Positions 5,938 through 22,164 of a DNA stretch of 22,464 nt are shown one piece after another. The stretch is from an uncultured Clostridia bacterium. Its GTDB lineage: Bacteria; Bacillota; Clostridia; Oscillospirales; Ruminococcaceae. The notes under the pieces are model-generated. The model was given only the letters and a program-made list of their open reading frames with translations, did no database searches and was not told the origin of the DNA. Position 1 is the first letter of the stretch. Every line of letters starts with the position of its first letter. The position numbers and the translations under genes are program-made. The DNA is taken from the NCBI GenBank assembly GCA_947385505.1, contig CANDLP010000003.1, positions 1-22,464 of the forward strand. Reading direction: 5' to 3'.

Positions 5938-7592
5938 GTTTTTCCCTCCACGTTTATAATCTGCGCCGCAAAAAAGCTTTTCTTTTCCTTTGTATTCAGA
6001 AAATGCGGCATTTTGATTTGCGCCGTGGGCTTTCCGCTATCGGAAATCGCTTGCTCGTAGCGTCTGAAGCTTCCTTCCCGAAGGTATTCGATACGAAGCG
6101 GCTCAATTTCACGCATATTCAGACACGATTTATACTCCCTGTTTGCTTCGCACATACATCTCTCAAAGATTTTGTCGGCGCTTTCGGGGATTTTTTTGCA
6201 CTCCATATAAAACAAGTATCTCGGCGCGATCCCCGAAAAGTCCTCTTGGACGCAATATCCGCTGACTTCGGTTCCCGTAAGCTCCGCAAACTTTTTTACA
6301 GCCGAGTCAAACTGCTGCTGATTGCTTTTCTCTCCCGCTATATTTATTATCTGATTTCGTCTGTAACAGAATTTCACAATCGGCGTATTCCCGCGCATTC
6401 CCACTACCCTGACAATGTCTCCGAGCCTGTAACGGTACAGTCCGGAACGGTTGGTTACAACAAGCTCATATTGTTTTCCCGCTTCAACGCTGCTCATAAG
6501 CAGCGGCGCGCTGTCTCCGTCCTCCGGGATAAATTCAAAGAAAACCGATTCGGGCAGCAGCATATATCTGTCCGCCGCGCTAACGTTCTCCGCCAGCCCG
6601 AAAACGCCTTCCGAAGCGGCGTAAACAAAAAAATGCAAAGGAACATCACCCGCGTAGCCGCGCATTTTTTCGGTATAATAAAAAAAACTGTCGCCGCCTA
6701 TCGCAAGAATGTATTTTACATTTTTCCAGATTTTCTTAATTATTCCTTTATGCATATTCTCACGCGGAATATTCCGAAGTTCCCTCGCGCGTTCGGGATT
6801 GGGCGGAAGATTTTCGACAATATATTTTCTTTGTTTTTCGGAAATATCTGCGCTCACCGTACCAAATTCCATATCATTCAGCAAAAGCTCCCAATTACGT
6901 AGAATATACTCGGTCACCCCCGCGGCGCGGTTGATAAAAACGCCGTGTATTGCCGTCAAATCCCGCTCCACAAGCGCAAATCTGACCTTGATATACAACA
7001 TATCCTCCAGAAAATCGGGAAACAGTATTTCCTTTGGAACGCAGTAATCGGAAGCGTCAAATCCCCCGTTTCTGTCAAGCCATTGATAAATACAGCCGGA
7101 ACGTATACCGTTCATTCTTCCGTCGGGCATATATGTTTTTGCGAATTCGCCTATCTGAAATATTTTTCCGAAAATATCCTCTTCGCTTAATTCTTTATAA
7201 TAATCGCGGATTTGTCCGAAAACCGCGCCGTACATAAAAATATAATGGGCTTCAAGATCGTATTCGGTTAGGGGAATATATTTTTCATCTCCCACGGTTC
7301 CGGAGCTTATACAGAAGTAAACGGCGTCCCGCGCGGTCAGAATATTTTTTTCTCCGTCAATAATTCGTTCAATGTATCGGGCGTAATCCACATATGAGGA
7401 AAGAGGAACTTTTTTCCGATACTCACTGACAGAATCAATCTTCCCGAAGCCGTATCTTCTGCCGAATTCGGTATCTTTGTTTTCATTCAGCCAATTGAGG
7501 AGAAATTTTGTCTGCACCGCCTCAGCATTTTGTGCCGACGCTTCGAGGCGCTTGACAGCTTCTTCGCCAAGCCGTCCGTATTCGGTTTTCAT
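5934..7592 (-). CDS. GH3-family acyl-acid amido synthetase-like protein
   Basis: The 552-residue protein shows the main motifs of the GH3 family, a branch of the adenylate-forming superfamily: SSGTVGDEKYIPLT (96-109, nucleotide loop), YAASEGVFG (324-332), LVVTNRSGLYRYRLGD (377-392) and INIAGEKSN (416-424). Plant GH3 enzymes join an amino acid to an acyl acid such as auxin or jasmonate through an acyl-adenylate; bacterial members are mostly uncharacterised. Length and motif order match the full family, so it seems intact. The start ATG overlaps the MATE-fusion stop by 4 bp, and the stop overlaps the phosphatase start by 4 bp. Its place inside a partner-switching operon suggests it makes, removes or caps a small amide signal sensed or transported by the neighbours, but that is inference. 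It could equally be a tailoring enzyme for an exported metabolite. Confidence 0.88.
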   Translation of the reverse strand: MKTEYGRLGEEAVKRLEASAQNAEAVQTKFLLNWLNENKDTEFGRRYGFGKIDSVSEYRKKVPLSSYVDYARYIERIIDGEKNILTARDAVYFCISSGTVGDEKYIPLTEYDLEAHYIFMYGAVFGQIRDYYKELSEEDIFGKIFQIGEFAKTYMPDGRMNGIRSGCIYQWLDRNGGFDASDYCVPKEILFPDFLEDMLYIKVRFALVERDLTAIHGVFINRAAGVTEYILRNWELLLNDMEFGTVSADISEKQRKYIVENLPPNPERARELRNIPRENMHKGIIKKIWKNVKYILAIGGDSFFYYTEKMRGYAGDVPLHFFVYAASEGVFGLAENVSAADRYMLLPESVFFEFIPEDGDSAPLLMSSVEAGKQYELVVTNRSGLYRYRLGDIVRVVGMRGNTPIVKFCYRRNQIINIAGEKSNQQQFDSAVKKFAELTGTEVSGYCVQEDFSGIAPRYLFYMECKKIPESADKIFERCMCEANREYKSCLNMREIEPLRIEYLREGSFRRYEQAISDSGKPTAQIKMPHFLNTKEKKSFFAAQIINVEGKT

Positions 7593-9316
7593 TGTGCGGA
7601 AACTCCCCCTTCCACAAAGATCTGTACGGTGTTTGTGCCGAATGTGCGCTGATACAGTATCTGCTCACATATGCTCTCGATAAGGCGAACGCCAATATAC
7701 TCATCGTCACTGTCCCCACATACAAGCGGGTTAAAGTCGTTCCCGCCGTAGCGTATCCGTATTCCTATAACTCCCTGAAGCGAGTATACCCGCAGATCAA
7801 ATTCCACGGTGCTTTCGTTTTTCGAGGAGATAAGCGCCATAATTTCTTCGAGTGCAAGACTGATTTTCATTGTTTGCTTTGGGGACATTCCGTTATTCGC
7901 GCAAAAAGCTGTTATCTTTTCTGAAGCGCCGCAAATGCTTTCTATGTCGCCGTTTACAGAGAAATTTATAACGTTTCCCGACTGTTCGAGAGAATTGTCC
8001 AGCAATAAAAACCGCGATGTTTTTTTATGAAAAACTCCTGTGGCGGCAAACCAAAAAAACAGCGTAAGAATTTCCCCGAAAAACAAAAACATCCATGGAC
8101 TTTGCCCAAAGTAAAGCAGCGCGAACAGGCTTGCGCAGGACATAACGAACACCCGCAAAAAGATTATCAGGTTTGCCCACACGTTACGCCCCGAAACGTT
8201 GTAAAATCCCGACAGAATACAGTTTATAAGCGCGGGAATTATGCCGAGAGACAGGCAGATAAGCGCGAATCTTAACGAAATATTAAGCCCGTATGCGCCG
8301 GATATCAAGTCAGCACCGAATATAATTACCGCCGAAAAAATAAGCGCGCAGGGTATTCCGCTTTTTAGCTGCCGTTTTATTAAAAGCCGAGTGCTTTCGT
8401 TGTCATGCTCTCCGCTGTAAATTCCGAGCATTGCCGACGCGGCTTGAGGCACTCCGCCCGTGACGCTTTCCGCGAAGGCAGCGATGCAGTTCACCGCCGT
8501 GAACGCCGCCACCGTTTCACTGCCGCAGAATTTTAGTAAAAGCACGTTTATTATAGATATGCGCAGCGTCTGGAACAGATTGTTTGCCGCCGACGGGCTT
8601 CCCGCTTTGGCGATCTCCGAGAATTTTATCCCCTTCGCTTTCACGCAAAAACCCAATTTAAAACCGCTTTTTTTACCGCACAGCCGAATAAAACCAAGCA
8701 CGCATGCGGCGGCGGTGGACAGAACGCTTGCCAGCGCCGCGCCGAATACTCCCATATCAAGTGCGTATAAAAACAATACATCCAGCGCCACATTGCCTAT
8801 GCCCATTATAAGCATCATCAGCGTGACCTGACCGTTTCGGCCGTCCAGCCGCAAGAACCAGAATGGTATGTATATAAGAATTTTCGGCAGCGCGCCGGCT
8901 ATCGTCACGCCCGAATATTCCATAACAAGCGGCATAACGGTTTCGTCGGAGCACAGAAAAAGCGACAGCGGTCTCAGGAAAACAAGCCCCGAAACCGTTA
9001 TGAAAATCGAGATGGCAGTACACCAGAAAATCGACATTTGATACAGTTTCTGAGCCTGTTCTGTCCGGTTTTTTCCGATTGCGTCAGAAGTGCTTATCGC
9101 CGTTCCGGACACAATGAACGAGCCCGCGATACACAGCGCCAGATATACCGGCAGACTGAAATTTATTGCCGCAAGCGCAGTTGTTCCCAGCCTTTGACCG
9201 ACAAGTATGCCGTCCGCCAAAATATTGATGTTTCCGCTCAGCACCGACATAACGCACGGCAGAAGAGCCTTATTGTACGCTTTTTTCAGAAATTGTTCGT
9301 TTTGTTTAAGTTCCAA
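7589..9316 (-). CDS. MATE-family transporter fused to a C-terminal RsbW-like domain
   Basis: Residues 1-440 have about twelve hydrophobic segments and read as a MATE-type multidrug/metabolite exporter (LPCVMSVLSGNINILADGIL; GTTALAAINFSLPVY; SGTAISTSDAIGKN). After a short linker, residues about 448-575 form a soluble domain resembling the RsbW-like kinase: LALEEIMALI (488-497) in the N-box position and EYIGVRLIESICEQILYQR where the lid helix sits. The N-box Asn is replaced by Leu and the DxGxx box reads RYGGND, so ATP use is doubtful. The start appears to be TTG at 9316, one base after the STAS stop. The ATG at 9321 is out of frame, and the next in-frame ATG would delete the first membrane helix; only a weak AAGG lies upstream. 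A transporter physically joined to a switch domain suggests that STAS binding controls transport, which is inference. Confidence 0.87.
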   Translation of the reverse strand: MELKQNEQFLKKAYNKALLPCVMSVLSGNINILADGILVGQRLGTTALAAINFSLPVYLALCIAGSFIVSGTAISTSDAIGKNRTEQAQKLYQMSIFWCTAISIFITVSGLVFLRPLSLFLCSDETVMPLVMEYSGVTIAGALPKILIYIPFWFLRLDGRNGQVTLMMLIMGIGNVALDVLFLYALDMGVFGAALASVLSTAAACVLGFIRLCGKKSGFKLGFCVKAKGIKFSEIAKAGSPSAANNLFQTLRISIINVLLLKFCGSETVAAFTAVNCIAAFAESVTGGVPQAASAMLGIYSGEHDNESTRLLIKRQLKSGIPCALIFSAVIIFGADLISGAYGLNISLRFALICLSLGIIPALINCILSGFYNVSGRNVWANLIIFLRVFVMSCASLFALLYFGQSPWMFLFFGEILTLFFWFAATGVFHKKTSRFLLLDNSLEQSGNVINFSVNGDIESICGASEKITAFCANNGMSPKQTMKISLALEEIMALISSKNESTVEFDLRVYSLQGVIGIRIRYGGNDFNPLVCGDSDDEYIGVRLIESICEQILYQRTFGTNTVQIFVEGGVSAQ

Positions 9317-9317
9317 C

Positions 9318-9629
9318 TCATTTAACCTTTTTTTTGCTTGCCTTCGATACCTTCAGCACTATGTTGAAGCCGGTGGTTTTGAATATATCGTAAACCACGG
9401 AGGAAGTGTTTATTACTTCCGTTTCAGGCACTTTTTTTCTCACGTTCAGAATAATTCTGAGTCCCGCGCTGCAAATATACTGCATATCCTTTGCGTCCAT
9501 AAAAACAGCTTTCGGTTCATATTCTTCAATCAGGTCCATCAGCTTCATTTCGGTATCCTGCGCGTTTACTGAATCAATCCTGTCAGGCAAAAAAATTGTC
9601 AATTTCTCATTTTGAAAAGTGTGTTCCAT
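9318..9629 (-). CDS. STAS-domain anti-anti-sigma factor (SpoIIAA/RsbV-like)
   Basis: A 103-residue protein filling one STAS domain. The strand KAVFMDAKDMQYICSAGLRI ends in a C-S-A-G-L motif whose Ser54 sits where RsbV and SpoIIAA are phosphorylated. Unphosphorylated STAS proteins bind RsbW-type kinases and release the kinase's captive. The likely kinase (3917-4324) and phosphatase (4321-5937) are in the same operon, and two further RsbW-like domains are fused to transporters, so this single STAS protein may serve several partners. It starts 4 bp after the sigma-factor gene and is followed by the MATE fusion after one base. The C-terminus is unusually basic (KASKKKVK). Confidence 0.9.
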   Translation of the reverse strand: MEHTFQNEKLTIFLPDRIDSVNAQDTEMKLMDLIEEYEPKAVFMDAKDMQYICSAGLRIILNVRKKVPETEVINTSSVVYDIFKTTGFNIVLKVSKASKKKVK

Positions 9630-9633
9630 ACCA

Positions 9634-10131
9634 TTATCCTTCGTTCATGAATTTTTGCATTGCGTTTAATGCCTTTGCATGCAGCAGCTTTATATAGCTG
9701 TATGAAATGTCCATTTTTCCGGCGATACTTTTTAACGTTTCTCCGCTGTAATAATGCAAAACAATTATATCACGCGATCTCTCGGAGAGCATTTCAAGCG
9801 CTTTTGCGAGCCGTTCGAGAGTTTCCTCCTCCAATGTAATCTCGTCACTGCCAATCGTGCAGAAAAGATCCTCGGACAGCCCGCAAACCTGTTTTGATGT
9901 GCGGAAGTAATCGGTGACGGTATTTCGGGTAATAGTGTAAATCCAAGTGGATAATGAAGCCTTGTTTTCGTCAAATTCCGAAAGACGGTTCAGCACCTTA
10001 ACGAAAACATCGGAAACAACATCTTCCGCGTCGTGAATATTCGCAATTTTTCCTCTTACATACCGTGAAACCTTATCTTTATACTCGGCGTAAACGCGTT
10101 CAAAATCCTGCTTTTCGCACAATTCAGTCAT
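9634..10131 (-). CDS. ECF-type sigma-70 family RNA polymerase sigma factor
   Basis: A 165-residue protein with sigma region 2 at about 11-77 (DAEDVVSDVFVKVLNRL, LSTWIYTITRNTVTDYFR) and region 4 at about 107-160, a helix-turn-helix reading LSERSRDIIVLHYYSGETLK followed by ISYSYIKLLHAKALNAM. There is no region 3 or 1.1, as in ECF sigma factors. The start chosen is ATG 10131: it overlaps the upstream stop by 8 bp (ATGACTGA) and has GGAGG nine bases upstream, whereas longer in-frame starts have no such site. Candidate target promoters include those of this operon, which lie outside the window. There is no membrane anti-sigma gene beside it, so the RsbW-like protein further down, or the 61-aa protein just upstream, may be its antagonist (inference). 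Confidence 0.92.
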   Translation of the reverse strand: MTELCEKQDFERVYAEYKDKVSRYVRGKIANIHDAEDVVSDVFVKVLNRLSEFDENKASLSTWIYTITRNTVTDYFRTSKQVCGLSEDLFCTIGSDEITLEEETLERLAKALEMLSERSRDIIVLHYYSGETLKSIAGKMDISYSYIKLLHAKALNAMQKFMNEG

Positions 10132-10309
10132 TGAATTTATCCTCCGTTTTTTCCGAAGGAAACGGCTCACCCGCAGCGCTTAAGTTTTTTAAATCGTCAT
10201 CGGAAAGCGTGCCGCAATAACGTTTTTCGGTTTCGGAAATTATTTTTGCAAGACGAGGATTTCCGGAAAAATTCTGAAAATCGAACAGAACTTTTAATGT
10301 TTTTTCCAT
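10124..10309 (-). CDS. Small protein (61 aa) with a leader-like SDDDLKNLSAAG tail, function unknown
   Basis: I do not recognise a characterised family. The protein begins MEKTLKVLFDFQNFSGNPRL, is likely helical and soluble, has one Cys (Cys32), and at 35-47 carries LSDDDLKNLSAAG. That segment closely resembles the end of the precursor leaders in this locus (LSDDELDNVAGGG) but has Ala-Ala-Gly instead of a Gly-Gly-Gly/Ala-Gly-Gly cleavage site and is followed by a short acidic tail. Two adjacent ATGs exist (10312 and 10309). The second is preferred because GGGAG lies six bases upstream of it; the radical SAM stop overlaps both. It overlaps the sigma-factor gene by 8 bp at its end. Possible roles: small anti-sigma or adaptor, leader mimic that titrates the radical SAM enzyme or exporter, or a degenerate precursor. 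Confidence 0.75.
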   Translation of the reverse strand: MEKTLKVLFDFQNFSGNPRLAKIISETEKRYCGTLSDDDLKNLSAAGEPFPSEKTEDKFND

Positions 10310-11706
10310 CATTCTCTCCCAATAGGCGCAAGGTTTCTCCAACCGTCAAGAAGCATTGTTATACGCTCGTACCAGCCCTTTTTGAAGAATGCGCATTTTG
10401 CAATATCGCAACCGAGCTTGTCGCCGGTAAGGGCTAACGCCAGTGCGCGACAGCCGCCGACGCAGTACTTGAAATACTTACATTCGGCGCACTTGGGATT
10501 ATGTTCGGCAAGCGTTTTTACCGTGGTGCACACTTCGTCGAGGTATTTTCCGCCCTGCAAAAGCGGCTGTAAGCCGTCTTTTTTTATGTTTCCGAGAACC
10601 TTTCCGCGCGCGTCGTAATACCCCGAATGCTGTAAGCACGGATACACGTTTCCGTTTGCCGCAACCGCGATCTTACCGCGGTTTCCCCTGCACACGGGAA
10701 GACTGTCGCGGTATTCGCCCTCGGCGCACTCCACCGGACGAACACGGAACGCTTTTCCGCCGGGGAATATGGTCAGAAACTGCCATATATCAATGTCCAT
10801 ATTTCGCGGCTTTTGGATATATTTTTCGGCGAAAGCAAACATATTTTCGTAGTATTCGTCCACACTGAGACAGGCGTCACCCGCATTTTCCGTCCAACGG
10901 GGAGATTCCGAGGTGCGTATTATTCGCATTTCGTCAATGCCCATATCGTCAAGCAGCTCCGCTGTTTGGAGCAGGGAATCAAGGTTCAACCGATGGACGT
11001 TAGTCTGCGCCCGCGTTTCAAAGCCGTTTTCCTTGCACAGCCTAAGCGCCGCCAGCGCGTTTTCTTCCGCGCCCTCGCGGTTTCTCAGCCAGTCATGGTG
11101 ACCCAGACCGTCAAAGGATATTTTGATAACGGGAACACAGTCCATGGACTTCAATCTGTCAAGCGTCTCACGATTTATAAAATACCCGTTGGTGTTGATT
11201 TCGCTGACGAACATTCCGCACTTGTAAATTTCCTCGATTATTTCAAAGAAATTCTTATGCAGCATCGGCTCGCCGCCCGTTAGGGTTATTGCGTTTAAAC
11301 CACATTTTTGCGCCTGTTCCAACATGATTTTTGCCTCTTCCAATGTCCATTCGCTCATTGACGGCGCGTTATCGGCGGCGTTGAAGCAGTGGAGGCAATT
11401 AAAGTTGCATTTTCCCGTTATCGCATATTCCATGGCTGGAAAATAGCGGTTATCGCAGTCCATGTGCTTTTGCCATTCCGAAAGCGCTTCGCCGTCTTTT
11501 GCGGGCGCGATAAAGCCGAGTTCGGTGAATTTTTTTACAAGGGGAGAATTTTCATCTAACTCCGTTTTGCCGTCGCATTTCAAAAGGAGTTCAAATTCGT
11601 CCTTTTTAAGCCCCTTCGCATCGCGAATGCCCTTTATGTAATAGGCATAAGGCACCAGCCGCCACGAACGCAGGGCAATATTCGGATTTAATATGTAATT
11701 TTTCAC
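10309..11706 (-). CDS. Radical SAM/SPASM RiPP-modifying enzyme
   Basis: A 465-residue protein with three parts. Residues 1-90 look like a small winged-helix or RRE-like N-terminal region. The radical SAM core has the cluster motif CNFNCLHC (Cys100, 104, 107) and TGGEP (143-147). A SPASM domain follows with GNVYPC and CAECKYFKYCVGGC (Cys406, 409, 415, 419), then Cys433 and Cys438, which bind auxiliary iron-sulfur clusters. Such enzymes cleave SAM to make a radical that modifies peptide residues: Cys-to-alpha-carbon thioethers in sactipeptides, other positions in ranthipeptides, or C-C crosslinks. It is the only candidate maturase here, lying 16 bp after the last precursor, so the Cys-rich cores are the likely substrates. 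The start appears to be GTG at 11706 with GGGAG eight bases upstream. The exact chemistry cannot be read from the sequence, and it could act on only some of the precursors. Confidence 0.92.
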   Translation of the reverse strand: MKNYILNPNIALRSWRLVPYAYYIKGIRDAKGLKKDEFELLLKCDGKTELDENSPLVKKFTELGFIAPAKDGEALSEWQKHMDCDNRYFPAMEYAITGKCNFNCLHCFNAADNAPSMSEWTLEEAKIMLEQAQKCGLNAITLTGGEPMLHKNFFEIIEEIYKCGMFVSEINTNGYFINRETLDRLKSMDCVPVIKISFDGLGHHDWLRNREGAEENALAALRLCKENGFETRAQTNVHRLNLDSLLQTAELLDDMGIDEMRIIRTSESPRWTENAGDACLSVDEYYENMFAFAEKYIQKPRNMDIDIWQFLTIFPGGKAFRVRPVECAEGEYRDSLPVCRGNRGKIAVAANGNVYPCLQHSGYYDARGKVLGNIKKDGLQPLLQGGKYLDEVCTTVKTLAEHNPKCAECKYFKYCVGGCRALALALTGDKLGCDIAKCAFFKKGWYERITMLLDGWRNLAPIGRE

Positions 11707-11722
11707 TTTATATACTCCCGCG

Positions 11723-12034
11723 TCAGATGAAATTTATACTTCTGCTGTCCATGCCATATACTTCAAAATCTCCCTCGCAGTTTGGATAAAGCGTAATGTG
11801 ATCCGTTACCACTGCTTCCAGATCATTTGCTCCCCTATTGTCGAAGGGGCAGGACTGCCAACCGCATTTTTTGCATCTCGCGATAAAAAAGTTAGCGTCG
11901 AGAACGGCGCCGCCCGCTACTCCGTCCAAAGCGTCGTCAGGGAGTTCTCCGCTCGGCATAACGTTCTCCAAAGGAGTTTGCGCCGCTTTTTTTAAGCTGT
12001 TGATCTGCAATTCGTTTTTCTTGTTATATTCCAT
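11723..12034 (-). CDS. Precursor peptide NP10, divergent leader, CKKCG core
   Basis: A 103-residue peptide with a shortened, divergent leader. The end SGELPDDALDGVAGG (28-42) clearly matches the Nif11-like leader end of the other precursors, but the N-terminal half (MEYNKKNELQINSLKKAAQT) does not keep the SPEELLALAKEN segment. The core starts AVLDANFF rather than Cys and contains four Cys: CKKCG (54-58, the same five residues as in NP2, NP3 and NP5), Cys62 and Cys86. It ends in an acidic tail (DSRSINFI). It sits directly before the radical SAM gene, so it may be that enzyme's dedicated substrate. AAGGGG lies five bases before the ATG. Confidence 0.78.
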   Translation of the reverse strand: MEYNKKNELQINSLKKAAQTPLENVMPSGELPDDALDGVAGGAVLDANFFIARCKKCGWQSCPFDNRGANDLEAVVTDHITLYPNCEGDFEVYGMDSRSINFI

Positions 12035-12060
12035 AGTAACCCCTTATCTATAAAATCAAT

Positions 12061-12090
12061 AGTAAACGACAAATCAATTTGCAGTTTACT
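12061..12090 (-). promoter_or_regulatory. Hairpin between precursor array and NP10/radical SAM genes
   Basis: AGTAAAC and GTTTACT (12061-12067 with 12084-12090) pair over 7 bp; a 2x2 internal loop is followed by CAAA/TTTG around a 4-nt loop. It lies in the only sizeable gap (67 bp) inside the precursor and enzyme run. It could be a processing site or partial attenuator that lets precursors exceed the enzyme in amount. No strong U-tract follows on the - strand, so full termination is unlikely. Confidence 0.4.
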
Positions 12091-12101
12091 GTTTTGTTGT
12101 T

Positions 12102-12515
12102 TTATTCCAATATTAAATCTATTTCCGGAAGTGTGGTCGATATAATCAGTTGATTTTGATGCTCACGGCAGTACACATAACACCAAAAATCCAAAGCCGC
12201 ACTGTCAACCCATGTTTTTTTAACTATACCGTGATTGGAACCGCATACGGGACAAGAAGCGGTTTTGCACAATACATTCGCATTGTTGTAGGTTCGTCTC
12301 AGCTTTTCCTCCGGCGGTACACTTTTGTCAATGCACCCGCCGCCCGACACGTTGTCAAGTTCCTCATCGGAAATCTCCCCCGAACCATGAAACTGTTCGA
12401 AATACGCTTTCGCACTTTCCTCGTCAAGCGGGTAGTTATTTTCCTTTGCAAGGGTCATAAGTTCCTCCGGAGAGCTTGCTTGTTTTGCTTTTTGTAAAAG
12501 TTCGATGTTTTTCAT
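12102..12515 (-). CDS. Precursor peptide NP9, Nif11-like leader, six-Cys core
   Basis: A 137-residue peptide. Leader 1-60 begins MKNIELLQKAKQASSPEEL and ends DNVSGGG, the C39 cleavage motif. The 77-residue core starts with Cys and has six Cys, including CPVCG and WCYVYC. Unlike NP2-NP7 it lacks the RLVVT and EKGLWLCN segments and ends in an acidic hydrophobic tail (LPEIDLILE), so it is a different core family behind the same leader. It starts after a 27-bp gap from NP8 with AAAGGA upstream of ATG 12515. Confidence 0.85.
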   Translation of the reverse strand: MKNIELLQKAKQASSPEELMTLAKENNYPLDEESAKAYFEQFHGSGEISDEELDNVSGGGCIDKSVPPEEKLRRTYNNANVLCKTASCPVCGSNHGIVKKTWVDSAALDFWCYVYCREHQNQLIISTTLPEIDLILE

Positions 12516-12542
12516 CTTTTTTCCTTTCTGTACGAACTGAAG

Positions 12543-12809
12543 TCAGAATCCTCTTCCGCATTTGCGGCATCTGAAATGACCGTCAACCTTTTCCATCGGA
12601 TACCCGCAGATACATTCCCTAAAGCTGCAGCCGCCGCCCGATACGTTTTCCAGTTCCTCTTCGGACATCTCGCCCGACCGATGCAGCTTCTCAAAATATT
12701 CCTCAGCCGATGTTTCGCTGAGTTCAATACCGTTTTCTTTTGCCAACGCTAAAAGTTCATCGGGCGAATTTGCTTGTCTTGCCTTTTCCAAAAGTTCCTT
12801 GTTTTCCAT
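12543..12809 (-). CDS. Precursor peptide NP8, Nif11-like leader, short five-Cys core
   Basis: An 88-residue peptide: a 60-residue leader (MENKELLEKARQANSPDEL ... ENVSGGG) and a 28-residue core beginning CSFRECICGYP and ending HFRCRKCGRGF. The spacing CxCG then CRKCG about 12 residues later resembles a minimal zinc ribbon. The start is ATG 12809, seven bases after GTGAGG; the ATG two codons earlier is too close to that site. The site overlaps the stop of the relic ORF just upstream. Core far shorter than in NP2-NP7. Confidence 0.85.
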   Translation of the reverse strand: MENKELLEKARQANSPDELLALAKENGIELSETSAEEYFEKLHRSGEMSEEELENVSGGGCSFRECICGYPMEKVDGHFRCRKCGRGF

Positions 12810-12818
12810 AAACATACC

Positions 12819-12875
12819 TCACTTTCTTCTTTCGGGATTGTTGCAAAGCCACAAACCTTTTTCATTAGTAACCAT
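12819..12875 (-). pseudogene. Relic of a precursor gene: leader start joined to core end, 18 codons
   Basis: Between NP7 and NP8 lies a small ORF, MVTNEKGLWLCNNPERRK, with its own Shine-Dalgarno site (ATGAGG overlapping the NP7 stop) and a TGA placed inside the NP8 site. Its first five residues match the leader start of NP7 (MITNE) and the rest matches the core end shared by NP2 and NP7 (YEKGLWLCNNP). About 30 bases of its 3' part are identical to the end of NP2. The simplest reading is an internal deletion of a full precursor, probably through the short ATGAA match found in both places. It may still be translated as an 18-aa peptide without a leader or export signal. Confidence 0.75.
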
Positions 12876-12886
12876 AATAATTTACC

Positions 12887-13291
12887 TCATTTACAATTGA
12901 CAGGGTTATTGCATAACCACATTCCTTTTTCATAGCTGCAATATGCGCAGGTGTTGCAGCAGACGGCGTGAGATCTGTTGTTGGCGTGACAGTGATGGTT
13001 CTTGCTGTTCATACATCTGCCTCCCCTTACCCTTTTGCCGCAATTAGCGCATTTGTATTCGTCACAGGCGTTTTTCATTGTTACAATAAGTCGGTCGCCT
13101 TTGTAACACCCGCCGCCCGAAACATTGTCAAGCTCGTCGTCCGAAAGCTCGCCCGACTTGTGAAACTGTTCAAAATAAGCTTCGGCGCTTTCCTCGGTCA
13201 GTTCCATATCATTTTCTTTTGCGAGAGCCAAAAGCTCTTCGGGAGAGTTTGCCCGTCTTGCCTTTGCAATAAGTTCTTCGTTAGTAATCAT
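12887..13291 (-). CDS. Precursor peptide NP7, Nif11-like leader, twelve-Cys core
   Basis: A 134-residue peptide whose leader (1-61, MITNEELIAKARRANSPEEL ... DNVSGGG) starts differently from the MENKELL of its siblings. The 73-residue core has the family frame (CYKGDRLIVT, C-x4-C-x2-CG, CNTCAYCSYEKGMWLCNNP) and about twelve Cys, the most in the array, plus several His in the variable loop (NSKNHHCHANNRSHAVCC). ATG 13291 is chosen with GTGAGG nine bases upstream; a GTG further up overlaps NP6 and has no site. The Cys/His richness suggests metal binding or many crosslinks (inference). Confidence 0.87.
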   Translation of the reverse strand: MITNEELIAKARRANSPEELLALAKENDMELTEESAEAYFEQFHKSGELSDDELDNVSGGGCYKGDRLIVTMKNACDEYKCANCGKRVRGGRCMNSKNHHCHANNRSHAVCCNTCAYCSYEKGMWLCNNPVNCK

Positions 13292-13302
13292 AATAATGTG
13301 CC

Positions 13303-13695
13303 TCACTTGTTATTGGCAGGGAAGTTGCATAACCACAGTCCCTTTTCGTATGACATATTTACGCAGCCGCTGCACTTAAAATGATCGATACGCTTCAATG
13401 TGCAGTCTGGGGACGCCCAATTATAGGTATTATGTGTTCGTCCGCACGACTTGCAGAGCCAATACTCGCAGGAATTCCCCAACGTTACAATCAGACGTCC
13501 GTCACCGTTATGACAACCGCCGCCGGACACGTTGTCCAGTTCTTCATCGGACAATTCGCTCGACTTGTGAAGCTGCTCAAAATAAGCTTTGGCGCTTTCC
13601 TCGGTCAGCTCCATATCGTTTTCTTTTGCGAGAGCCAAAATTTCTTCGGGCGAATTTGCCTGTCTTGCTTTTTCCAAAAGTTCTTTGTTTTCCAT
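13303..13695 (-). CDS. Precursor peptide NP6, Nif11-like leader, eight-Cys core
   Basis: A 130-residue peptide: leader 1-60 (MENKELLEKARQANSPEEI ... DNVSGGG), core 70 residues beginning CHNGDGRLIVT with one extra residue before RLIVT. Eight Cys in the pattern C, C-x4-C-x2-CG, C, C-x2-C, then SYEKGLWLCNFP. The usual CxYCSYEK is changed to CVNMSYEK, losing one Cys. GTGAGG lies seven bases before the ATG. Confidence 0.87.
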   Translation of the reverse strand: MENKELLEKARQANSPEEILALAKENDMELTEESAKAYFEQLHKSSELSDEELDNVSGGGCHNGDGRLIVTLGNSCEYWLCKSCGRTHNTYNWASPDCTLKRIDHFKCSGCVNMSYEKGLWLCNFPANNK

Positions 13696-13732
13696 AATGA
13701 CGCCTCACTTCCTGTTTTAGATTTTGTACAGG

Positions 13733-14128
13733 TTATTTGGGATAGTTGCAAAGCCACAAAGCTTTTTCATAGGAACAATATTTGCAATCCAAACAGCCAA
13801 TTTTTCTATTGACCCACCGCCCTTTGCAAAGGTGTTGATCTGCAATAGGCCGGATAAGAACGTGTTGATAAGAGTCCCCGCACTTCTTGCATATCCAATT
13901 TTCGCAGCAATGAAACTGCGTGACCACAAGTCTGCCGCCGTTATAACATCCGCCGCCCGCAACATTGTCCAATTCGTCATCGGACAGTTCGCCAGTCTTT
14001 TTAAGCTGCTCAAAATACGCTTTTGCGCCTTCCTCGTCAAGTTCGTAGTCGTTCTCTTTTGCCAGAGCTAAAAGTTCTTCGGGAGAATTGGCCTGTCTTG
14101 CCTTTTCCAAAAGTTCTTTGTTTTCCAT
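13733..14128 (-). CDS. Precursor peptide NP5, Nif11-like leader, ten-Cys core
   Basis: A 131-residue peptide: leader 1-60 ending DNVAGGG, core 71 residues (CYNGGRLVVT, ENWICKKCG, CLDCKYCSYEKALWLCNYPK). It is the closest sibling of NP3, sharing GGRLVVT, NWICKKCG and CLDCKYCSYEKALWLCN, though NP4 lies between them. Its C-terminus stops early (NYPK) compared with NRK-type ends. The bases after the stop still carry an AACAGGAAGTGAGG block like the usual gene end, so the end was probably shortened by mutation. The ATG overlaps the NP4 stop by one base (TAATG). Confidence 0.87.
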   Translation of the reverse strand: MENKELLEKARQANSPEELLALAKENDYELDEEGAKAYFEQLKKTGELSDDELDNVAGGGCYNGGRLVVTQFHCCENWICKKCGDSYQHVLIRPIADQHLCKGRWVNRKIGCLDCKYCSYEKALWLCNYPK

Positions 14129-14529
14129 TAGTTAACTCCTTTTCTGTTTGCGGGATGGGTGCAAATCATTCTTATACCCCGATTAACTCTGTATTTACAG
14201 GTTTTGCAGTTTGTGGAATACTGTCCGAGGCCGCTGCAGCAATGAGTATCGCCAAAATGAGGATTGGTAAACGATTTCCCGCAATGATTGCAAACATAGT
14301 GGCTGCAGGAATACCCTACGGTTACAACAAGTTCATCGTTGTTGTAACAGCCGCCTCCCGCAACGTTGTCCAATTCGTCGTCGGACAGCTCGCCGACCGT
14401 ATGAAGCTGCTCAAAATACGCCTTTGCGCCTTCCTCGTCAAGAGGGTAGCCGTTCTCCTTTGCCAGAGCCAGAAGTTCTTCGGGTGAATTTGCCTGTCTT
14501 GCCTTTTCCAAAAGTTCTTTATTTTCCAT
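14128..14529 (-). CDS. Precursor peptide NP4, Nif11-like leader, divergent nine-Cys core
   Basis: A 133-residue peptide: leader 1-60 (MENKELLEKARQANSPEEL ... DNVAGGG) almost identical in DNA to that of NP3, but with a more divergent core: CYNNDELVVT, SHYVCNHCG, a CC pair, CKTCKY, then RVNRGIRMICTHP in place of the usual CSYEKGLWLCN. About nine Cys. It ends with three extra residues (GVN) because the position that is a TGA stop in NP3 is GGA here; translation runs to a TAA overlapping the NP5 start. Confidence 0.87.
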   Translation of the reverse strand: MENKELLEKARQANSPEELLALAKENGYPLDEEGAKAYFEQLHTVGELSDDELDNVAGGGCYNNDELVVTVGYSCSHYVCNHCGKSFTNPHFGDTHCCSGLGQYSTNCKTCKYRVNRGIRMICTHPANRKGVN

Positions 14530-14537
14530 TAGTTAAC

Positions 14538-14942
14538 TCACTTTCTGTTTGCGGGATGATTGCACAACCATAGCGCTTTTTCATAGGAACAATATTTACA
14601 GTCCAAACAGCTGATGTTTCTCTCGGTCCACCGCACCTTACAAAAGTGGCGATCTGCCACATCCCTGATAAGACCGGTTTGATAATCTCCACCGCACTTC
14701 TTGCATATCCAATTTTTGCAGTTATGAAACTTCGTGACCACAAGCCGTCCGCCGTTATAACACCCGCCGCCGGCAACATTGTCCAATTCGTCATCGGACA
14801 GCTCGCCGGTCGTATGAAGCTGCTCAAAATACGCCTTTGCGCCTTCCTCGTCAAGTTCGTAATCATTCTCCTTTGCCAGAGCCAGAAGCTCTTCGGGTGA
14901 ATTTGCCTGTCTTGCCTTTTCCAAAAGTTCTTTGTTTTCCAT
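14538..14942 (-). CDS. Precursor peptide NP3, Nif11-like leader, nine-Cys core
   Basis: A 134-residue peptide: leader 1-60 (MENKELLEKARQANSPEEL ... DNVAGGG) and a 74-residue core with CYNGGRLVVT, KNWICKKCG, CLDCKYCSYEKALWLCNHP and nine Cys. Between the two knuckle blocks is a variable loop (GDYQTGLIRDVADRHFC). GTGAGG lies seven bases upstream of the ATG and overlaps the NP2 stop codon. Confidence 0.88.
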   Translation of the reverse strand: MENKELLEKARQANSPEELLALAKENDYELDEEGAKAYFEQLHTTGELSDDELDNVAGGGCYNGGRLVVTKFHNCKNWICKKCGGDYQTGLIRDVADRHFCKVRWTERNISCLDCKYCSYEKALWLCNHPANRK

Positions 14943-14951
14943 AATGCTACC

Positions 14952-15365
14952 TCACTTTTTCATCTTCGCCGGATTGTTGCAAAGCCACAAACCTTTTTCA
15001 TAGGAACAATACTTGCAGTCTTTACAAATGTTGTTCATTTTGATTGTCCCGTTCAAACAATCGTGATCAAAAGACATAAAGATGGTTTTATAAACTCTTT
15101 TGGGCATCCCTCTGCCGCATTTTTTGCATACCCATTCATAGCATTGGTTATATAATGTAACAACAAGTCTGTCGCCGTTATAACATCCGCCGCCCGCAAC
15201 ATTGTCCAACTCGTCGTCGGAAAGTTCGCCGGTCTTATGAAGCTGTTCAAAATACGCCTTTGCGCCTTCCTCGTCAAGGTCGTAATCGTTCTCCTTTGCC
15301 AGAGCCAGAAGTTCTTCGGGGGAATTTGCCTGTTTCGCCTTTTCCAAAAGTTCTTTGTTTTCCAT
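14952..15365 (-). CDS. Precursor peptide NP2, Nif11-like leader, nine-Cys core
   Basis: A 137-residue peptide with a 60-residue leader (MENKELLEKAKQANSPEEL ... DNVAGGG) and a 77-residue core: CYNGDRLVVT, CYEWVCKKCGRG, a basic loop (MPKRVYKTIF), then CKDCKYCSYEKGLWLCNNP and a KMKK tail. Nine Cys. Best Shine-Dalgarno site of the array (AGGAGG, seven bases before the ATG). The leader matches the nif11-like leader domain (TIGR03798 type) and would guide export and cleavage by the C39 exporter upstream. Confidence 0.88.
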   Translation of the reverse strand: MENKELLEKAKQANSPEELLALAKENDYDLDEEGAKAYFEQLHKTGELSDDELDNVAGGGCYNGDRLVVTLYNQCYEWVCKKCGRGMPKRVYKTIFMSFDHDCLNGTIKMNNICKDCKYCSYEKGLWLCNNPAKMKK

Positions 15366-15392
15366 TGTAAAACCTCCTGTAAAAGTTTTTTC

Positions 15393-15638
15393 TTAAAATC
15401 CGTGGGGCAGGTTATCCAAATTGCACCCGCCGCCCGAAACGCTGTCAAGCTCCTCTTCGGACAGTTCGCCGAAGCTGTGGATACGTTCAAAGTACGCTTT
15501 CGCGCCGTTCTCGTCAAGGGGATAATCAACTTCCTTGGCAAATTCAAGCAGTTCCTCGGGAGAATTCGCCTGTTTCGCTTTTTCCAGAAGCTCCTTATCG
15601 GAAAGTTTTCCGATAAATTGTTTGTTTTCGTTTCCCAT
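15393..15638 (-). CDS. Precursor peptide NP1, long Nif11-like leader, 10-residue core
   Basis: An 81-residue peptide, first of the array and 18 bp after the sulfatase-like gene. It has the leader motifs (DKELLEKAKQANSPEELLE, SEEELDSVSGGG) with an eleven-residue N-terminal extension (MGNENKQFIGK). After GGG only CNLDNLPHGF follows, with a single Cys. The start is ATG 15638 with GGAGG five bases upstream; a TTG four codons earlier lies within that site. With one Cys and no Ser/Thr it cannot make the internal Cys crosslinks available to its neighbours, so it may be a signal peptide, a differently modified product, or a truncated precursor. Confidence 0.85.
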   Translation of the reverse strand: MGNENKQFIGKLSDKELLEKAKQANSPEELLEFAKEVDYPLDENGAKAYFERIHSFGELSEEELDSVSGGGCNLDNLPHGF

Positions 15639-15656
15639 AATGTCCTCCAATTCCCC

Positions 15657-17669
15657 TTAAGGCTCAATAATATTAAAATACGGTTCAAACTGCGCGCGGT
15701 TTTCCGCGAAAATTTTCAGAATGTCCTCTTTCCCCTCGGCGGATTCGACGGTTTTATCCATAAGCGCCTTGTTGTTCTGCGCTATTCCCACTATACCCGC
15801 GCGTTTCAATTTTAATACGGCGTCGGGATCGTCGCTCCATTCCTCTTTTGAATAAAGCAGAACGCCGCTGTGGATACGAAGCAGATATTTTTCCTTGTCG
15901 TCGGTCACTTCCAAATTTATTACAAGGTTTTTATCCTCAAGCTTTTTGGAATCAAGACACATGGAGAGATAATCGAGCATTGTTTCCGTACTCATAGCGA
16001 GAGCGGAAGCGCCGGTGCCGCCTACAGTTGTTTCGGCATAGCCGCCCGTTCCGTTACGAAGCTCGTAGGCTCCCGTAAGATACGCATTGCGCCACGCCCC
16101 CGACTCCGACTGATATCCCAGCTGCTCCAAAGCGTCCGCACACAGATAACGCGCCTGCGTGTTGTCCGGCTGAGCGTATACAATGGCATTGGTTATCTCC
16201 GCCACCCACTGATACTCTCCCTTTTCAAAATCGGCTTTCGCCATTTCCAATGCCTTGTCGGTATCTCCAAGGTATTCCACAAGCTTCCGCGCGTATTCCG
16301 ACGGCGCAAGCTCCGCCAAATGAACGGGATTGGCGTCATACCAGCCCATATATTTCTGATAGACTGCCTTGGCGTTATGTTCAAGAGTTCCGTAATACTG
16401 TCTTGTATACCACACCTTTTCCAGATCGGCGGGCAGGCTTATCATATCGGCAATCTCGGCGGAGGTATAGCCCTCGTTGATATACTGAAGCGTTTGTGAA
16501 TGTATGTAACGGTAAACCGCGGCGGTGTTCAATAAATATTCGTTGACAATATCATTTCCCCAATGAGGCCAGTTGTGGGACTGAAAAACCACCTCCGCCT
16601 CTCCCCCGAAAAGCGCCTTTGCTTTCATAATGTAGTCGCCCCATGCTCCCGCGTCTCTTATTTCCGCTCCGCGCAGGGTGTAAATGTTGTGCATTGTCGC
16701 CGTGCAGTTTTCAGCCATCCAAAGCGCCTTGTAATCGGGAAGGTATGTATTCATTTCCGCCGGTGATTCTGTTCCCGGGGTGAGTTGAAATACCATTTTC
16801 ACGCCGTCAACCGTAATCTCTTCAATATCCTCCTTTACTTCGTAGGTGGGAGTGTAATAGGACGTTGTTCCCGCGCATACGGTAAGACCGATTCCCACCG
16901 AAAGAGCGCCGTTTTCGCTCTTGGGAATCAACGAGCCGTACTGAAAATTTGAACGGCGCTTCATGGCGTTGCCCGCAAGCACATTCTCTTCCATAGCGGC
17001 GGTTTCAAAGCCCTCAGGCACTATAAGAAGCGTCTTTCCCGAAGCTATCTGTTCCGTAAGCTCTAAATCGGGATCGGCGAGATTCTCCTTGGAAACAATA
17101 CCTCCCACTCCCCCGTAATGATCTATATGCGCATGGCTTATAACCACCGCCGAAATGTGCGCATCGCCGAATTCTTCCTCAAAAAGCTCCAAAGAGGCGG
17201 CTGCCGTTTCAATTCCCGTACCGCAGTCAAAAACGATCCAGCCTTTGTCGCCCTTGACAAAAGTAACATTCGCCACATCATATCCTCTGACCTGATATAT
17301 CCCGTCCGTGACCTCATAAAGTCCGTACAGCGCGTTAAGCTGTGTGTTTCTCCACAGACTTGGGTTTGCCGAATCGGGGGGATTCGCGCCGCGCACAAAG
17401 TCGTAAATTTCCTGACTCCACACGGCTGCACCTTTTTCGTTGGAAATTTCAAGGGTCTCGGGGGCGCGGATAAATCCCCGCTCCGCAAACTCTTTCTCGC
17501 TTTCGTCGTTAAAATCCAGTTTACCCGTAACATCGGCGTTGATCTTTTTTGTATACTCCGTTGCCGGCTTTACCTCGGCGGTCAGCGTCGTTTCTTTGCC
17601 GCAGCCGGTTAGCAGTGTCGCAGCGCATACTGCGGCTGTTATTTTGAACAAGTTTTTTTTACCAAACAT
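15657..17669 (-). CDS. Alkyl-sulfatase-like metallo-beta-lactamase-fold lipoprotein
   Basis: A 670-residue protein with a lipoprotein signal (LLTGC, Cys23), so anchored outside the membrane. The catalytic domain has the metal motif HAHIDHYGG (179-187) and later SHNWPHWGND (His365), with acidic residues near 305-320 (EMNTYLPDYKALWMAENC). This set fits the SdsA1/YjcS group of zinc alkyl sulfatases rather than a beta-lactamase. The family's alkyl-sulfatase dimerisation region follows (about 385-530, MGWYDANPVHLAEL), then an SCP2-like C-terminus (about 555-665). Family members release sulfate from alkyl sulfates. The gene lies 18 bp before the first precursor and 81 bp after the exporter, with GGAG six bases before ATG 17669; I see no clear promoter in that 81-bp gap. 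A sulfatase beside a RiPP array is unusual: it may act on a sulfated host or dietary molecule, on a self-made signal, or be an accessory hydrolase. Confidence 0.88.
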   Translation of the reverse strand: MFGKKNLFKITAAVCAATLLTGCGKETTLTAEVKPATEYTKKINADVTGKLDFNDESEKEFAERGFIRAPETLEISNEKGAAVWSQEIYDFVRGANPPDSANPSLWRNTQLNALYGLYEVTDGIYQVRGYDVANVTFVKGDKGWIVFDCGTGIETAAASLELFEEEFGDAHISAVVISHAHIDHYGGVGGIVSKENLADPDLELTEQIASGKTLLIVPEGFETAAMEENVLAGNAMKRRSNFQYGSLIPKSENGALSVGIGLTVCAGTTSYYTPTYEVKEDIEEITVDGVKMVFQLTPGTESPAEMNTYLPDYKALWMAENCTATMHNIYTLRGAEIRDAGAWGDYIMKAKALFGGEAEVVFQSHNWPHWGNDIVNEYLLNTAAVYRYIHSQTLQYINEGYTSAEIADMISLPADLEKVWYTRQYYGTLEHNAKAVYQKYMGWYDANPVHLAELAPSEYARKLVEYLGDTDKALEMAKADFEKGEYQWVAEITNAIVYAQPDNTQARYLCADALEQLGYQSESGAWRNAYLTGAYELRNGTGGYAETTVGGTGASALAMSTETMLDYLSMCLDSKKLEDKNLVINLEVTDDKEKYLLRIHSGVLLYSKEEWSDDPDAVLKLKRAGIVGIAQNNKALMDKTVESAEGKEDILKIFAENRAQFEPYFNIIEP

Positions 17670-17750: not shown

Positions 17751-19952
17751 TTATGTTCCTGTTTTCACTGTGTCATCCAGCCTTTGCCGCGCTACCAGCT
17801 CCGCGAAAAAGCCGCCCTTTTCTATCAGTTCGTCATATGTTCCGTCCTCGATGATTTTTCCTTTATCCAATACGATAATTCTGTCGCACTGCTTTATCGT
17901 GGAAAGCCTGTGCGCTATAACTATTCGCGTGCATTTCAGTCCGTCCAGCGATTCGGAAACGGTCTTTTGCGTAAGGTTATCCAGAGCGGAGGTCGCTTCG
18001 TCAAACATAAGTATTTTAGGTTTTGGGGCAATCGCGCGTGCTATCATAAGCCGCTGCCGCTGACCTCCCGAAACGCCGCCCGAACCCTCGGAAATTATCG
18101 TGTGCATTCCCATCGGCATACGGCGGATATCCTCCGCGATACCTGACAGCTCGGCTGCGCGCCATGCTTCGTCCATAGTCAGCCACGGCGCGGATATAGT
18201 AATATTTGAGAAAATATCCCCCGAAAACAGCTTGCCGTTCTGCATCACAACTCCGATATTCCGCCGCAGAGATTTCAGATCCACCGTAGAAATATCTTTT
18301 CCGTCAAAATACACGGCGCCTTTCTGCGGTGTTTCAAAGCCCAGCATAAGCCTCAGCAGAGTGGATTTTCCGCAGCCTGTCGCCCCCACTATTGCCACAT
18401 ACTGCCCGGGGCGGATTTTCAAGGACAAGTTATCCACCACAAGGGGCATATTTTCATTGTATCGGAAGGAAACATTGTTCAGCTCAATACCGCCCGAAAG
18501 CCGCGTTATCATCTGCTTCCCCTCGGATATCTCCGGAACTGTCTGTAAAATCGGCTTCACCATATCCGTTATCGGCTTTATCTGCGCGACGGTAAGCGCA
18601 ATCCCCGCCAAGGACATAAACGCTCCCGAAACCATTCCGTAAGCCGTGTTAAAGGCGTAGTAGTCCGCCACCGATACCCCCGATGACACCGCGAAATAAT
18701 ACATCACAAGTGTTCCTAAAAGAGATATTGCGCTTGAAATAACCGTGTTTATTTTTAGAAATGTCGGCGGATTATAGCTGAACCTCGCGCTCTGCGCAAA
18801 GAGATTTCCCCACCTTGCGAATGCGCGTTTCTCCGCGCCCGAAAGCTTTATCTTTTGTACTCCCGAAATCAGCGCATAGGAAATTCCGCTTTCCTTTGAG
18901 GAAATCTCCATTTGCCGCTTGCTGAGCTTCATCTGCACAAAAGCGGAAATTATCGAAAACGCCACTGTCACCAGCGTGATTATAAGCGACGGCACAACCA
19001 AAGCGGGCGCATAAACGAAAATCTGTGATATGTAAGCAAGTGAAAATATCGAAGTAAGTCCCGTTGACAGCACTGCCGAAACCAGCATATTACAAAGGGA
19101 ATTGATATATTGCGCCCTCGCTGACAATTCGCCTGAGCCGTAATTCTTAAAAAACTCGGCGGGGAGCGACATCATGCGCGACATTGTCGCCGCCTGGACG
19201 GAGATGTTCATTTTCGTGTTTATCCGCGCCATAATCAGCGATTTTACCCCGTTTACCAGCAAGCTGCTTATCGTTACGCAGATCATAAATGCTGTTATAG
19301 CAAGTAACAGACGATAACTTCCGTTTTCAATCACGGTTGAAAAAAGTAAATTATTTAATTTCGGAGAAATCATCCCGATAAGAGTTATAGCAAGGGTAGA
19401 AGCGCATATCAGAATGAAATCCGCGGGGGAGAGCGTTCCTAAAATGTACCTCATTAAATCGATAATGCCGAGTTTTTTCAGCGGAAGCGGCTTATAAAAC
19501 GCTATCGCTTCTTCCTCAAACAGATCTTGATTTTTTCGGTTTATTTTTACGCGCTTTCCCGTTTTTTCATCGGTGAAGGAATACCCCGAAAGCCCTGTGG
19601 GGATAAGCGCAACGACCGTTTTGTCATCTTTGCGAACGCCTAACATAGCGCCGAAGGCGTCCTTGTACCAGCCCTTGGACAAAACGACCATACGGCGCAT
19701 TATCCCATGCGGATGAAGCAGATATTCAAGCTGCTCGTTTCTGTCCTTGATATTATCCGGAATTTCACGCGTTTTCACATGGTAAAATTTAAGTATTTCG
19801 TCAAAGGCGTTTTTCGCGATTTGGCGCCGGTCGTTCAGCGCCGAAGAAACTCGGCTGCCCATAACAGCGCCCGCGATATTTACAAAGGAGTCCGCGAAAA
19901 CGTCGTCATCGTTTTTCTTACGCTGTTTTATCTGTTCGTCAAACCAACCCAT
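17751..19952 (-). CDS. NHLM-type peptide ABC exporter, permease/ATPase without peptidase
   Basis: A 733-residue exporter half. Residues 1-160 form a soluble N-terminal domain (EEEAIAFYKPLPLKKLGIID leads into the membrane part) rather than a C39 peptidase. About 170-470 is a six-helix ABC transporter membrane domain. The ATPase domain has Walker A GATGCGKST (523-531), signature VSGGQ (627-631) and Walker B ILMFDEA (647-653). This arrangement matches the second ABC protein of NHLM bacteriocin systems (TIGR03797 type), which pairs with a peptidase-containing partner and a HlyD-like protein, both encoded just upstream. The start ATG follows the partner's stop by 20 bp. Probably forms a heterodimer, or a parallel channel, for Nif11-leader peptides. 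Confidence 0.92.
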   Translation of the reverse strand: MGWFDEQIKQRKKNDDDVFADSFVNIAGAVMGSRVSSALNDRRQIAKNAFDEILKFYHVKTREIPDNIKDRNEQLEYLLHPHGIMRRMVVLSKGWYKDAFGAMLGVRKDDKTVVALIPTGLSGYSFTDEKTGKRVKINRKNQDLFEEEAIAFYKPLPLKKLGIIDLMRYILGTLSPADFILICASTLAITLIGMISPKLNNLLFSTVIENGSYRLLLAITAFMICVTISSLLVNGVKSLIMARINTKMNISVQAATMSRMMSLPAEFFKNYGSGELSARAQYINSLCNMLVSAVLSTGLTSIFSLAYISQIFVYAPALVVPSLIITLVTVAFSIISAFVQMKLSKRQMEISSKESGISYALISGVQKIKLSGAEKRAFARWGNLFAQSARFSYNPPTFLKINTVISSAISLLGTLVMYYFAVSSGVSVADYYAFNTAYGMVSGAFMSLAGIALTVAQIKPITDMVKPILQTVPEISEGKQMITRLSGGIELNNVSFRYNENMPLVVDNLSLKIRPGQYVAIVGATGCGKSTLLRLMLGFETPQKGAVYFDGKDISTVDLKSLRRNIGVVMQNGKLFSGDIFSNITISAPWLTMDEAWRAAELSGIAEDIRRMPMGMHTIISEGSGGVSGGQRQRLMIARAIAPKPKILMFDEATSALDNLTQKTVSESLDGLKCTRIVIAHRLSTIKQCDRIIVLDKGKIIEDGTYDELIEKGGFFAELVARQRLDDTVKTGT

Positions 19953-22153: not shown

Positions 22154-22164
22154 AGACAGCCACC

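Follow-up and report, generated by a model that had tools for sequence, protein, structure and literature searches.

The window analysed here is a stretch of 22,464 nucleotides from an uncultured Clostridia bacterium (Ruminococcaceae; contig CANDLP010000003.1). Its central feature is an array of ten precursor genes, NP1–NP10 (numbered in transcription order), flanked upstream by an NHLM export system and downstream by a single radical S-adenosylmethionine (SAM)/SPASM gene on the same strand. The peptides are best read as secreted, diversified, zinc-ribbon-like mini-domains that probably bind two zinc ions, a reading to which we assign a probability of roughly 0.55. The computed evidence comprises the gene layout, the leader, the transporter class, the co-occurrence of the radical SAM protein with the cores, and a ligand-like exchange and co-loss of cysteines.

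The ten leader-sharing open reading frames (ORFs) described by a first-pass annotation of this region are all present on the minus strand between positions 11723 and 15650, both in the ORF list and on direct reading; position 15638 is an inner ATG of NP1, the ORF of which reaches 15650. All ten leaders end in GG or GGG, as had been noted. Nine are closely similar and of the Nif11 type, and that of NP10 is shortened. NP3 exceeds the cut-off of TIGR03798, the model for Nif11-leader precursors (34.3 bits, cut-off 32.3), which was applied to three of the ten precursors; NP7 lies below it (28.4 bits) and NP10 is not matched. The PF07862 cut-off is exceeded by NP2–NP5 (NP2 26.7 bits, cut-off 23.8) but not by the other six, and no further Nif11 match over the cut-off was found outside the array in the host genome assembly (415 contigs, 87.5% complete). 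Used as a query, NP3 recovered its own ORF and eight siblings, all but NP10 (E 7.7e-76 to 4.7e-24). Because NP3 finds these siblings and other genomes have the core frame too, the likeness within the array is more than chance. The leader is strongly conserved and the core evolves more freely on a conserved frame: leader divergence among NP2–NP6 is 0.02–0.13 nonsynonymous (dN) at 0.29–1.24 synonymous (dS), and the NP3 and NP5 cores (first 70 codons) give dN 0.17 at dS 0.59.

The cores of NP2–NP7 share the common frame that had been proposed, with a first-position Cys (C1), the motif RL(V/I)VT (EL in place of RL in NP4), C-x4-C-x2-CG and a later C-x2-C. A tail of the form EKxLWLCNxP is found in NP2, NP3, NP5 and NP6; NP7 has GMWLCNNP instead, and NP4 an altered form. 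The CxxCG knuckle occurs in nine of the ten cores, NP1 being the exception. Main-type Cys-rich cores follow the leaders of NP2 (14952–15365, nine Cys), NP3 (14538–14942, nine Cys), NP5 (13733–14128, ten Cys) and NP6 (13303–13695, eight Cys), the last lacking the additional Cys behind the second CxxC. NP4 (14128–14529) carries nine Cys, and NP7 (12887–13306) a 12-Cys core and a likely start at the inner ATG at 13291. The array opens with NP1 (15393–15650), in which a Nif11-type leader precedes a 10-residue core, CNLDNLPHGF, with one Cys. At the other end NP8 (12543–12815, five Cys) has a short single ribbon-like core (CICG...CRKCG), NP9 (12102–12515, six Cys) a diverged core with a CPVCG knuckle, and NP10 (11723–12034, four Cys) an Ala after GG and a different core with RCKKCG. 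A relative of NP10 stands directly before the radical SAM gene in locus L037 (150 bits). Between NP7 and NP8 an orphan core tail, MVTNEKGLWLCNNPERRK (12819–12875, minus strand), recognized by reading the sequence, is probably what is left of a former member of the array and suggests loss or recombination inside the array.

Upstream of the precursors, both subunits of an NHLM/NHLP export system score above their NCBIfam cut-offs. The first, ABC1 (19973–22168, minus strand; TIGR03796, 949 bits, cut-off 853.3), contains the C39 double-glycine peptidase domain (Peptidase_C39, E 1.1e-34) and is the only C39 transporter over the TIGR03796 cut-off in the whole genome; the second subunit (17751–19952, minus strand) matches TIGR03797 with 750.9 bits (cut-off 709.4). 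The conserved Nif11-type leader would be recognized by this transporter, the C39 domain of which would cut after the double glycine, and it is probably recognized by the radical SAM/SPASM protein too. The released cores would then be small zinc-ribbon-like mini-domains.

The frame is also found elsewhere. NP3 matches occur in nine of 60 genomes, the window's own included, several of them via the leader alone. Among 84,980 species genomes scanned, 53 loci emerged, and eleven of these (L036–L046), all from uncultured Clostridia, carry the same core frame, the largest with 17 leader-bearing ORFs. Where the source of these loci is hinted at it is the animal gut (goat cecum, 'Lapin'), and the host bacterium is probably of animal-gut origin.

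A set of 70 cores was assembled from sequences that have both the pattern [VIMR][VI][TS]...C and a Cys following the leader, so that C1 and C2 are partly selected for. The alignment contains columns C1, C2, C3-x2-C4, C5, C6-x2-C7, C8 (44 of 70 cores) and C9 (68 of 70), that is, paired CxxC knuckles with the conservation seen for metal ligands. The chief evidence for this comes from a test of the loop before C6: at least two Cys or His are present there in all 63 cores that have C3xxC4. The pattern (H/C)xC occurs in that loop in 39 of the 63 (shuffled mean 7.7, maximum 18 in 2000 shuffles). Its two forms substitute for each other in this loop after the first CxxC, CxC and HxC being almost mutually exclusive (1/24 versus 15/39, p 0.0024). 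Losses are also correlated. C4 is missing in all five cores without C3 (p 1.7e-6), C5 in four of the same five, and C5 in five of the seven cores without C4 (p 3.8e-4); the five cores without C3 all retain C2, C6 and C9, and C7 except in L046_6314. Judged from the alignment, two metal sites would be the simplest reading of the loop test and of the co-loss of C3, C4 and C5. In the main core type, predicted site A would be made of C3-x2-C4 and two loop residues, mostly (His or Cys)-x-C5, and predicted site B of C2, C6-x2-C7 and C9. The loops between the ligands vary, so that the array would yield a collection of differing surfaces on a shared frame.

Sister cores of simpler design point to the zinc-ribbon families. 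Plain CxxC...CxxC cores adjoin the radical SAM gene in eight loci (L026, L027, L030, L041, L042, L105, L106 and L130) and are also found in genomes without a match to it (L028, L031 and L032), and the ribbon is therefore independent of the enzyme. Of ten plain ribbon cores, nine hit one or more Pfam profiles named for zinc with E 0.01 or lower, all under gathering scores, compared with two of ten Cys-fixed shuffles; the ten were picked from 36 rows, some of them repeats, with one shuffle each. Profile A2 of the core family was built from 60 of 62 reference cores, L043:11295-11540 and L044:2663-2941 being omitted as poor fits. Its best match among PDB sequences is zinc-binding bL36 (E 0.023), followed by mS66 (0.1) and rubredoxin (0.6). 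Pfam matches of its members are prominently to zinc families, each family being matched by a single member. The NP3 core itself matched no Pfam family. Its AlphaFold model is mostly beta, with a predicted local distance difference test (pLDDT) score of 85.2 and a predicted template modelling (pTM) score of 0.70, and gave no meaningful match to PDB structures in a comparison with four chains, so that this absence says little. LanC-like cyclases (PF05147) and YcaO proteins (PF02624) have no match in the 87.5% complete genome, which bears out the reported absence of LanM and YcaO; neither lanthipeptide machinery nor that for the azoles of thiazole/oxazole-modified microcins (TOMMs) and linear azol(in)e-containing peptides (LAPs) was thus found. 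The first-pass annotation had seen zinc-ribbon-like rather than lanthipeptide cores and had proposed a profile search against zinc families as a check. The ligand-like Cys/His pattern, the weak matches of sister cores and the missing LanC and YcaO agree with it; a meaningful structural counterpart in the PDB and a Pfam family match for the NP3 core did not emerge.

Two further sets of leader-bearing peptides were observed in this comparison. In Eggerthellaceae, Coriobacteriaceae and other Coriobacteria (L059, L063, L064, L074 and L077), sequences matched by the leader profile likewise end in plain zinc-ribbon-like CxxC...CxxC cores. Twenty Nif11-leader ORFs lie at L028:8288-15010, in a genome without a radical SAM match; many of their cores are short and amphipathic-looking (DLKDKLKKRIKELLF, IVDTVKEWFGSLFGK) and in some a helix-like segment is joined to a plain zinc ribbon. 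These peptides look unmodified and perhaps membrane-active.

The radical SAM/SPASM protein (10309–11706, minus strand; PF04055 E 1.9e-22, PF13186 E 1.6e-7) is the sole maturase candidate. The motif CX3CX2C and the SPASM motif C-x2-C-x5-C-x3-C are readable in its sequence. Among the matches listed (25 of 73 NCBIfam models) it is below the cut-off of every model, and TIGR04064 is absent from them. It scores 80.4 of 725 bits on the Nif11-class maturase family TIGR04103 and, for the sactipeptide and ranthipeptide maturases, 101 of 625 bits on StsB and 65.6 of 340 bits on PapB; among PDB sequences SkfB comes closest (46.5 bits). No second recurrent enzyme near the cores was recognized by eye among the unmatched ORFs listed in nine loci, for which no family-library scan was made.

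Orthologues of this protein (E 1e-80 or better) are rare. Within the genus 6 of 71 genomes have one; for the order the count is 9 of 394, for the class 4 of 391 and for the phylum 2 of 398, in overlapping samples that each include the window's own genome. A search for the core family with profile A2 (E 1e-6), in what is apparently the same set of 394 genomes from the order, gave four genomes, each of them among the nine with the radical SAM protein. The chance of such an overlap, calculated by hand, is 1.3e-7, or 5.6e-6 without the window's own genome. Both counts are lower bounds, candidates having been only partly scored in some genomes (at most 14 for the core and at most 4 for the radical SAM protein). 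A relative at E 1e-40 is present in 13 of 17 genomes chosen for holding Nif11-type peptides; G002 has only distant relatives (30–31% identity), and those of G451 and G454 are fragments at contig ends. Of the four genomes without a relative, three (G018, G030 and G031) have no main core type in the stretches read and the fourth (G460, locus L047) has one peptide of a related core subtype. Of 22 genomes with an orthologue or a piece of it, 17 have leader-type peptides on the contig that carries it (the window, L026, L027, L030, L037, L038, L040, L041, L042, L045, L046, L103, L105, L106, L107, L108 and L130); in G451 they are on another contig. A separate observation concerns L103:7968-8535, where a pair of peptides with Nif11 leaders and acidic cores poor in Cys (CDPSSDDDDDDDYED... 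and ASGCSEEDDEPE...) directly precedes a radical SAM gene whose product is 61% identical to the window's.

Several observations weigh against a family of two-zinc mini-domains tied to this enzyme. Neither CxC nor HxC is present in 24 of the 63 cores, and five further cores lack C5 in its column and have a loop Cys elsewhere. The cores are paralogues, and the number of independent exchange and loss events is hence small. Lastly, no leader-type peptide was found beside the orthologue in four genomes (G071, G077, G571 and G773). The claim that the radical SAM protein is the only maturase candidate accordingly gains from the co-occurrence with the cores and is limited by these four orthologues. 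In loci L101, L102, L128 and L129 the leader profile had no hit, and inspection of the remaining small ORFs revealed none that was clearly a Nif11-type precursor, L101 and L102 being short contigs; in L128:7857-13841 (G571) the orthologue (451 bits) stands directly before NHLM transporter relatives, and no Nif11-type leader was found. Such orthologues may use another leader.

The rival explanation that survives best, which we nevertheless regard as unlikely, is that the peptides are thioether-containing ribosomally synthesized and post-translationally modified peptides (RiPPs). In these sactipeptide- or ranthipeptide-like products the radical SAM protein would join a number of Cys to carbons of the backbone or of side chains, and rings would account for the CxxC spacing. 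It is the only recurrent enzyme recognized beside the core family, its SPASM motif is readable, and the core starts with Cys in 110 of 126 cases from radical SAM genomes (21 loci), a strong enrichment over the 5 of 28 in loci without the protein. This count gave preference, equally in the two groups, to a GG run with Cys directly behind it, is drawn from paralogous cores, so that its p value cannot be read as a probability, and sets apart the cores without a GG run (four in the first group, one in the comparison group). The comparison group consists of L028, L031, L032, L047 and L035, the last being the second locus of G005, which has the radical SAM protein elsewhere; the genome with distant relatives only (L033 and L034), counted apart, has a first Cys in 1 of 20 cores. 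The first residue of one homologous core subtype is Cys in L036 and Thr in L047, a genome without a radical SAM match. Against thioethers, a loop His takes the place of the Cys of other cores, which is unexpected for a thioether ring, plain CxxC...CxxC cores occur where the enzyme does not, and the protein is far under the StsB, PapB and TIGR04103 cut-offs. L103, L107 and L108 have the radical SAM protein and mostly other first residues, and the first core Cys was rejected as its obligatory site; the proteins of L103 and L107 (the latter partial) are among the closer ones, at 61–62% identity to the window's.

Disulfide-rich toxins have a similar design, in which a conserved frame carries variable loops. 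The cores could likewise be disulfide-rich bacteriocins, Cys-rich exported peptides that pair their cysteines after export and in which the radical SAM protein has a minor role or none. We consider this improbable. The number of Cys is even in 38 of the 70 cores and odd in 32, a poor fit to a fully disulfide-paired family; the His/Cys exchange and the CxxCG knuckles also speak against it, and no thiol oxidoreductase was recognized in the part of the window's ORFs that was searched. Cys4 sites bind iron as well as zinc. A rubredoxin-like or metal-scavenging role, the array being a secreted set of metallophores for iron or another metal, is slightly more improbable still, for while rubredoxin is among the weak core-profile matches and the bufferins are known metal-chelating RiPPs (PMC12452194, in the part consulted), no metal-uptake or metal-response gene was recognized among the same ORFs, and scavenging needs no varied loops on a fixed frame.

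For secreted zinc-ribbon-like mini-domains an outward role would be expected, most likely in competition or communication with other gut bacteria, and a function as effector or signal appears more likely than metal scavenging. By their genomic linkage to the radical SAM protein the peptides are candidates, no more, for RiPPs in the strict sense, which have an enzymatically modified core. That the window encodes a new exported peptide class, with diversified two-zinc mini-domains, one radical SAM enzyme modifying many cores and metal-structured RiPPs acting between gut bacteria, is a tentative proposal and rather doubtful as a whole.

The remaining genes of the window are partly shared with related loci; the ORF piece, the alkylsulfatase-like gene and the sigma, STAS-like, SpoIIE and HATPase-like genes described next are on the minus strand. 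An ORF piece before ABC1 (22165–22420, called to 22464) represents a C-terminal portion truncated by the contig end and an adapter; family searches with it gave no match, and it may be a secretion accessory. Positions 22421–22454 are identical to what we take to be the Illumina TruSeq adapter, and the final bases of the contig, with the start of ORF 22165–22464, are an artefact. Between the exporter genes and the array lies a gene for an alkylsulfatase-like metallo-beta-lactamase protein with a lipoprotein-like N terminus (15657–17669; PF14863 E 5.8e-58). It is probably an insertion and not a core part, since no counterpart was found among matches in 22 compared loci, several of which are short contigs. 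Downstream of the radical SAM gene an extracytoplasmic function (ECF)-type sigma factor and possible regulator (9634–10170; PF04542 E 1.6e-16), with relatives near other NHLM loci, is followed by a STAS-like anti-sigma-factor antagonist (9318–9629), MATE and GH3 genes, a SpoIIE phosphatase (4321–5937; PF07228 E 1.2e-44), with relatives near other Nif11 loci, and a HATPase-like protein (3917–4360); the STAS-like and HATPase-like proteins were named by recognition. The sigma, STAS-like, SpoIIE and HATPase-like set could possibly exert partner-switching control of peptide production. These genes and the MATE gene (3917–10170) partly recur near the Nif11/NHLM loci of relatives, the STAS-like gene staying with the sigma factor and MATE in L133, and the GH3 gene recurs in L037. 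A small ORF ahead of the sigma factor (10124–10342) has no family match, is kept in L133 (88.9 bits) and is possibly a sigma partner. An Rfam search of the window at gathering level gave no match.

If the zinc-ribbon-like reading is true, bacteria secrete libraries of zinc-structured peptides via a pathway so far tied to lanthionine and azole products, and linked to radical SAM maturases so far by gene context. It would add a core type that genome mining for known ring chemistry may overlook, offer a natural scaffold in which the ligands are fixed and the loops free, and pose the question of how a radical SAM enzyme acts on a metal-binding domain. No earlier description of zinc-ribbon cores behind Nif11 leaders was found in a literature search whose scope left out most subscription papers. 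The suggestion of a new RiPP class goes too far, as Nif11-type leaders with a radical SAM protein as sole candidate maturase were already described in 2011 (PMC3023750, relevant section); the novelty looks to lie in the ribbon-like core type and not in the Nif11 and radical SAM system.

Nif11 precursors (N11P, TIGR03798/PF07862) with NHLM transporters were described by Haft in 2010 (PMC2887384). According to the relevant passages, that system has the leader family, the GG end, the TIGR03796 and TIGR03797 transporters and the expansion of paralogues with varied cores in common with the window; its partners, however, are lanthionine or thiazole/oxazole machinery, and ribbon-like cores are unmentioned in those passages. 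Haft in 2011 (PMC3023750) described NHLP and Nif11-type peptides whose sole maturase candidates are radical SAM proteins. The leader class and a radical SAM protein with the motif C-x2-C-x5-C-x3-C are shared with that system, whereas the window's protein reaches only 80.4 of 725 bits on TIGR04103 and the cores are undescribed in the section concerned. The system is thus of a known kind, both the pairing of Nif11 with the transporter and that of Nif11 with radical SAM having been described. In the part consulted of a survey of anaerobes (PMC4289311), Nif11-type RiPPs are named only with LAP and LanM enzymes. Prochlorosins similarly combine many varied Nif11-family cores with one promiscuous enzyme (PMC10783134, in part), but their lanthionine rings are made by LanM and the window's genome has no LanC match. 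The bufferins, from what is given in part of PMC12452194, are likewise modified peptides that bind metal, their enzyme being an MNIO and their metal copper. Finally, bL36 and zinc ribbons of the TFIIB/TFIIS type have the same CxxC knuckles, and bL36 weakly matches the CxxC...C of the core tail, at E 0.023 only; unlike the window's peptides, these proteins have no export leader.

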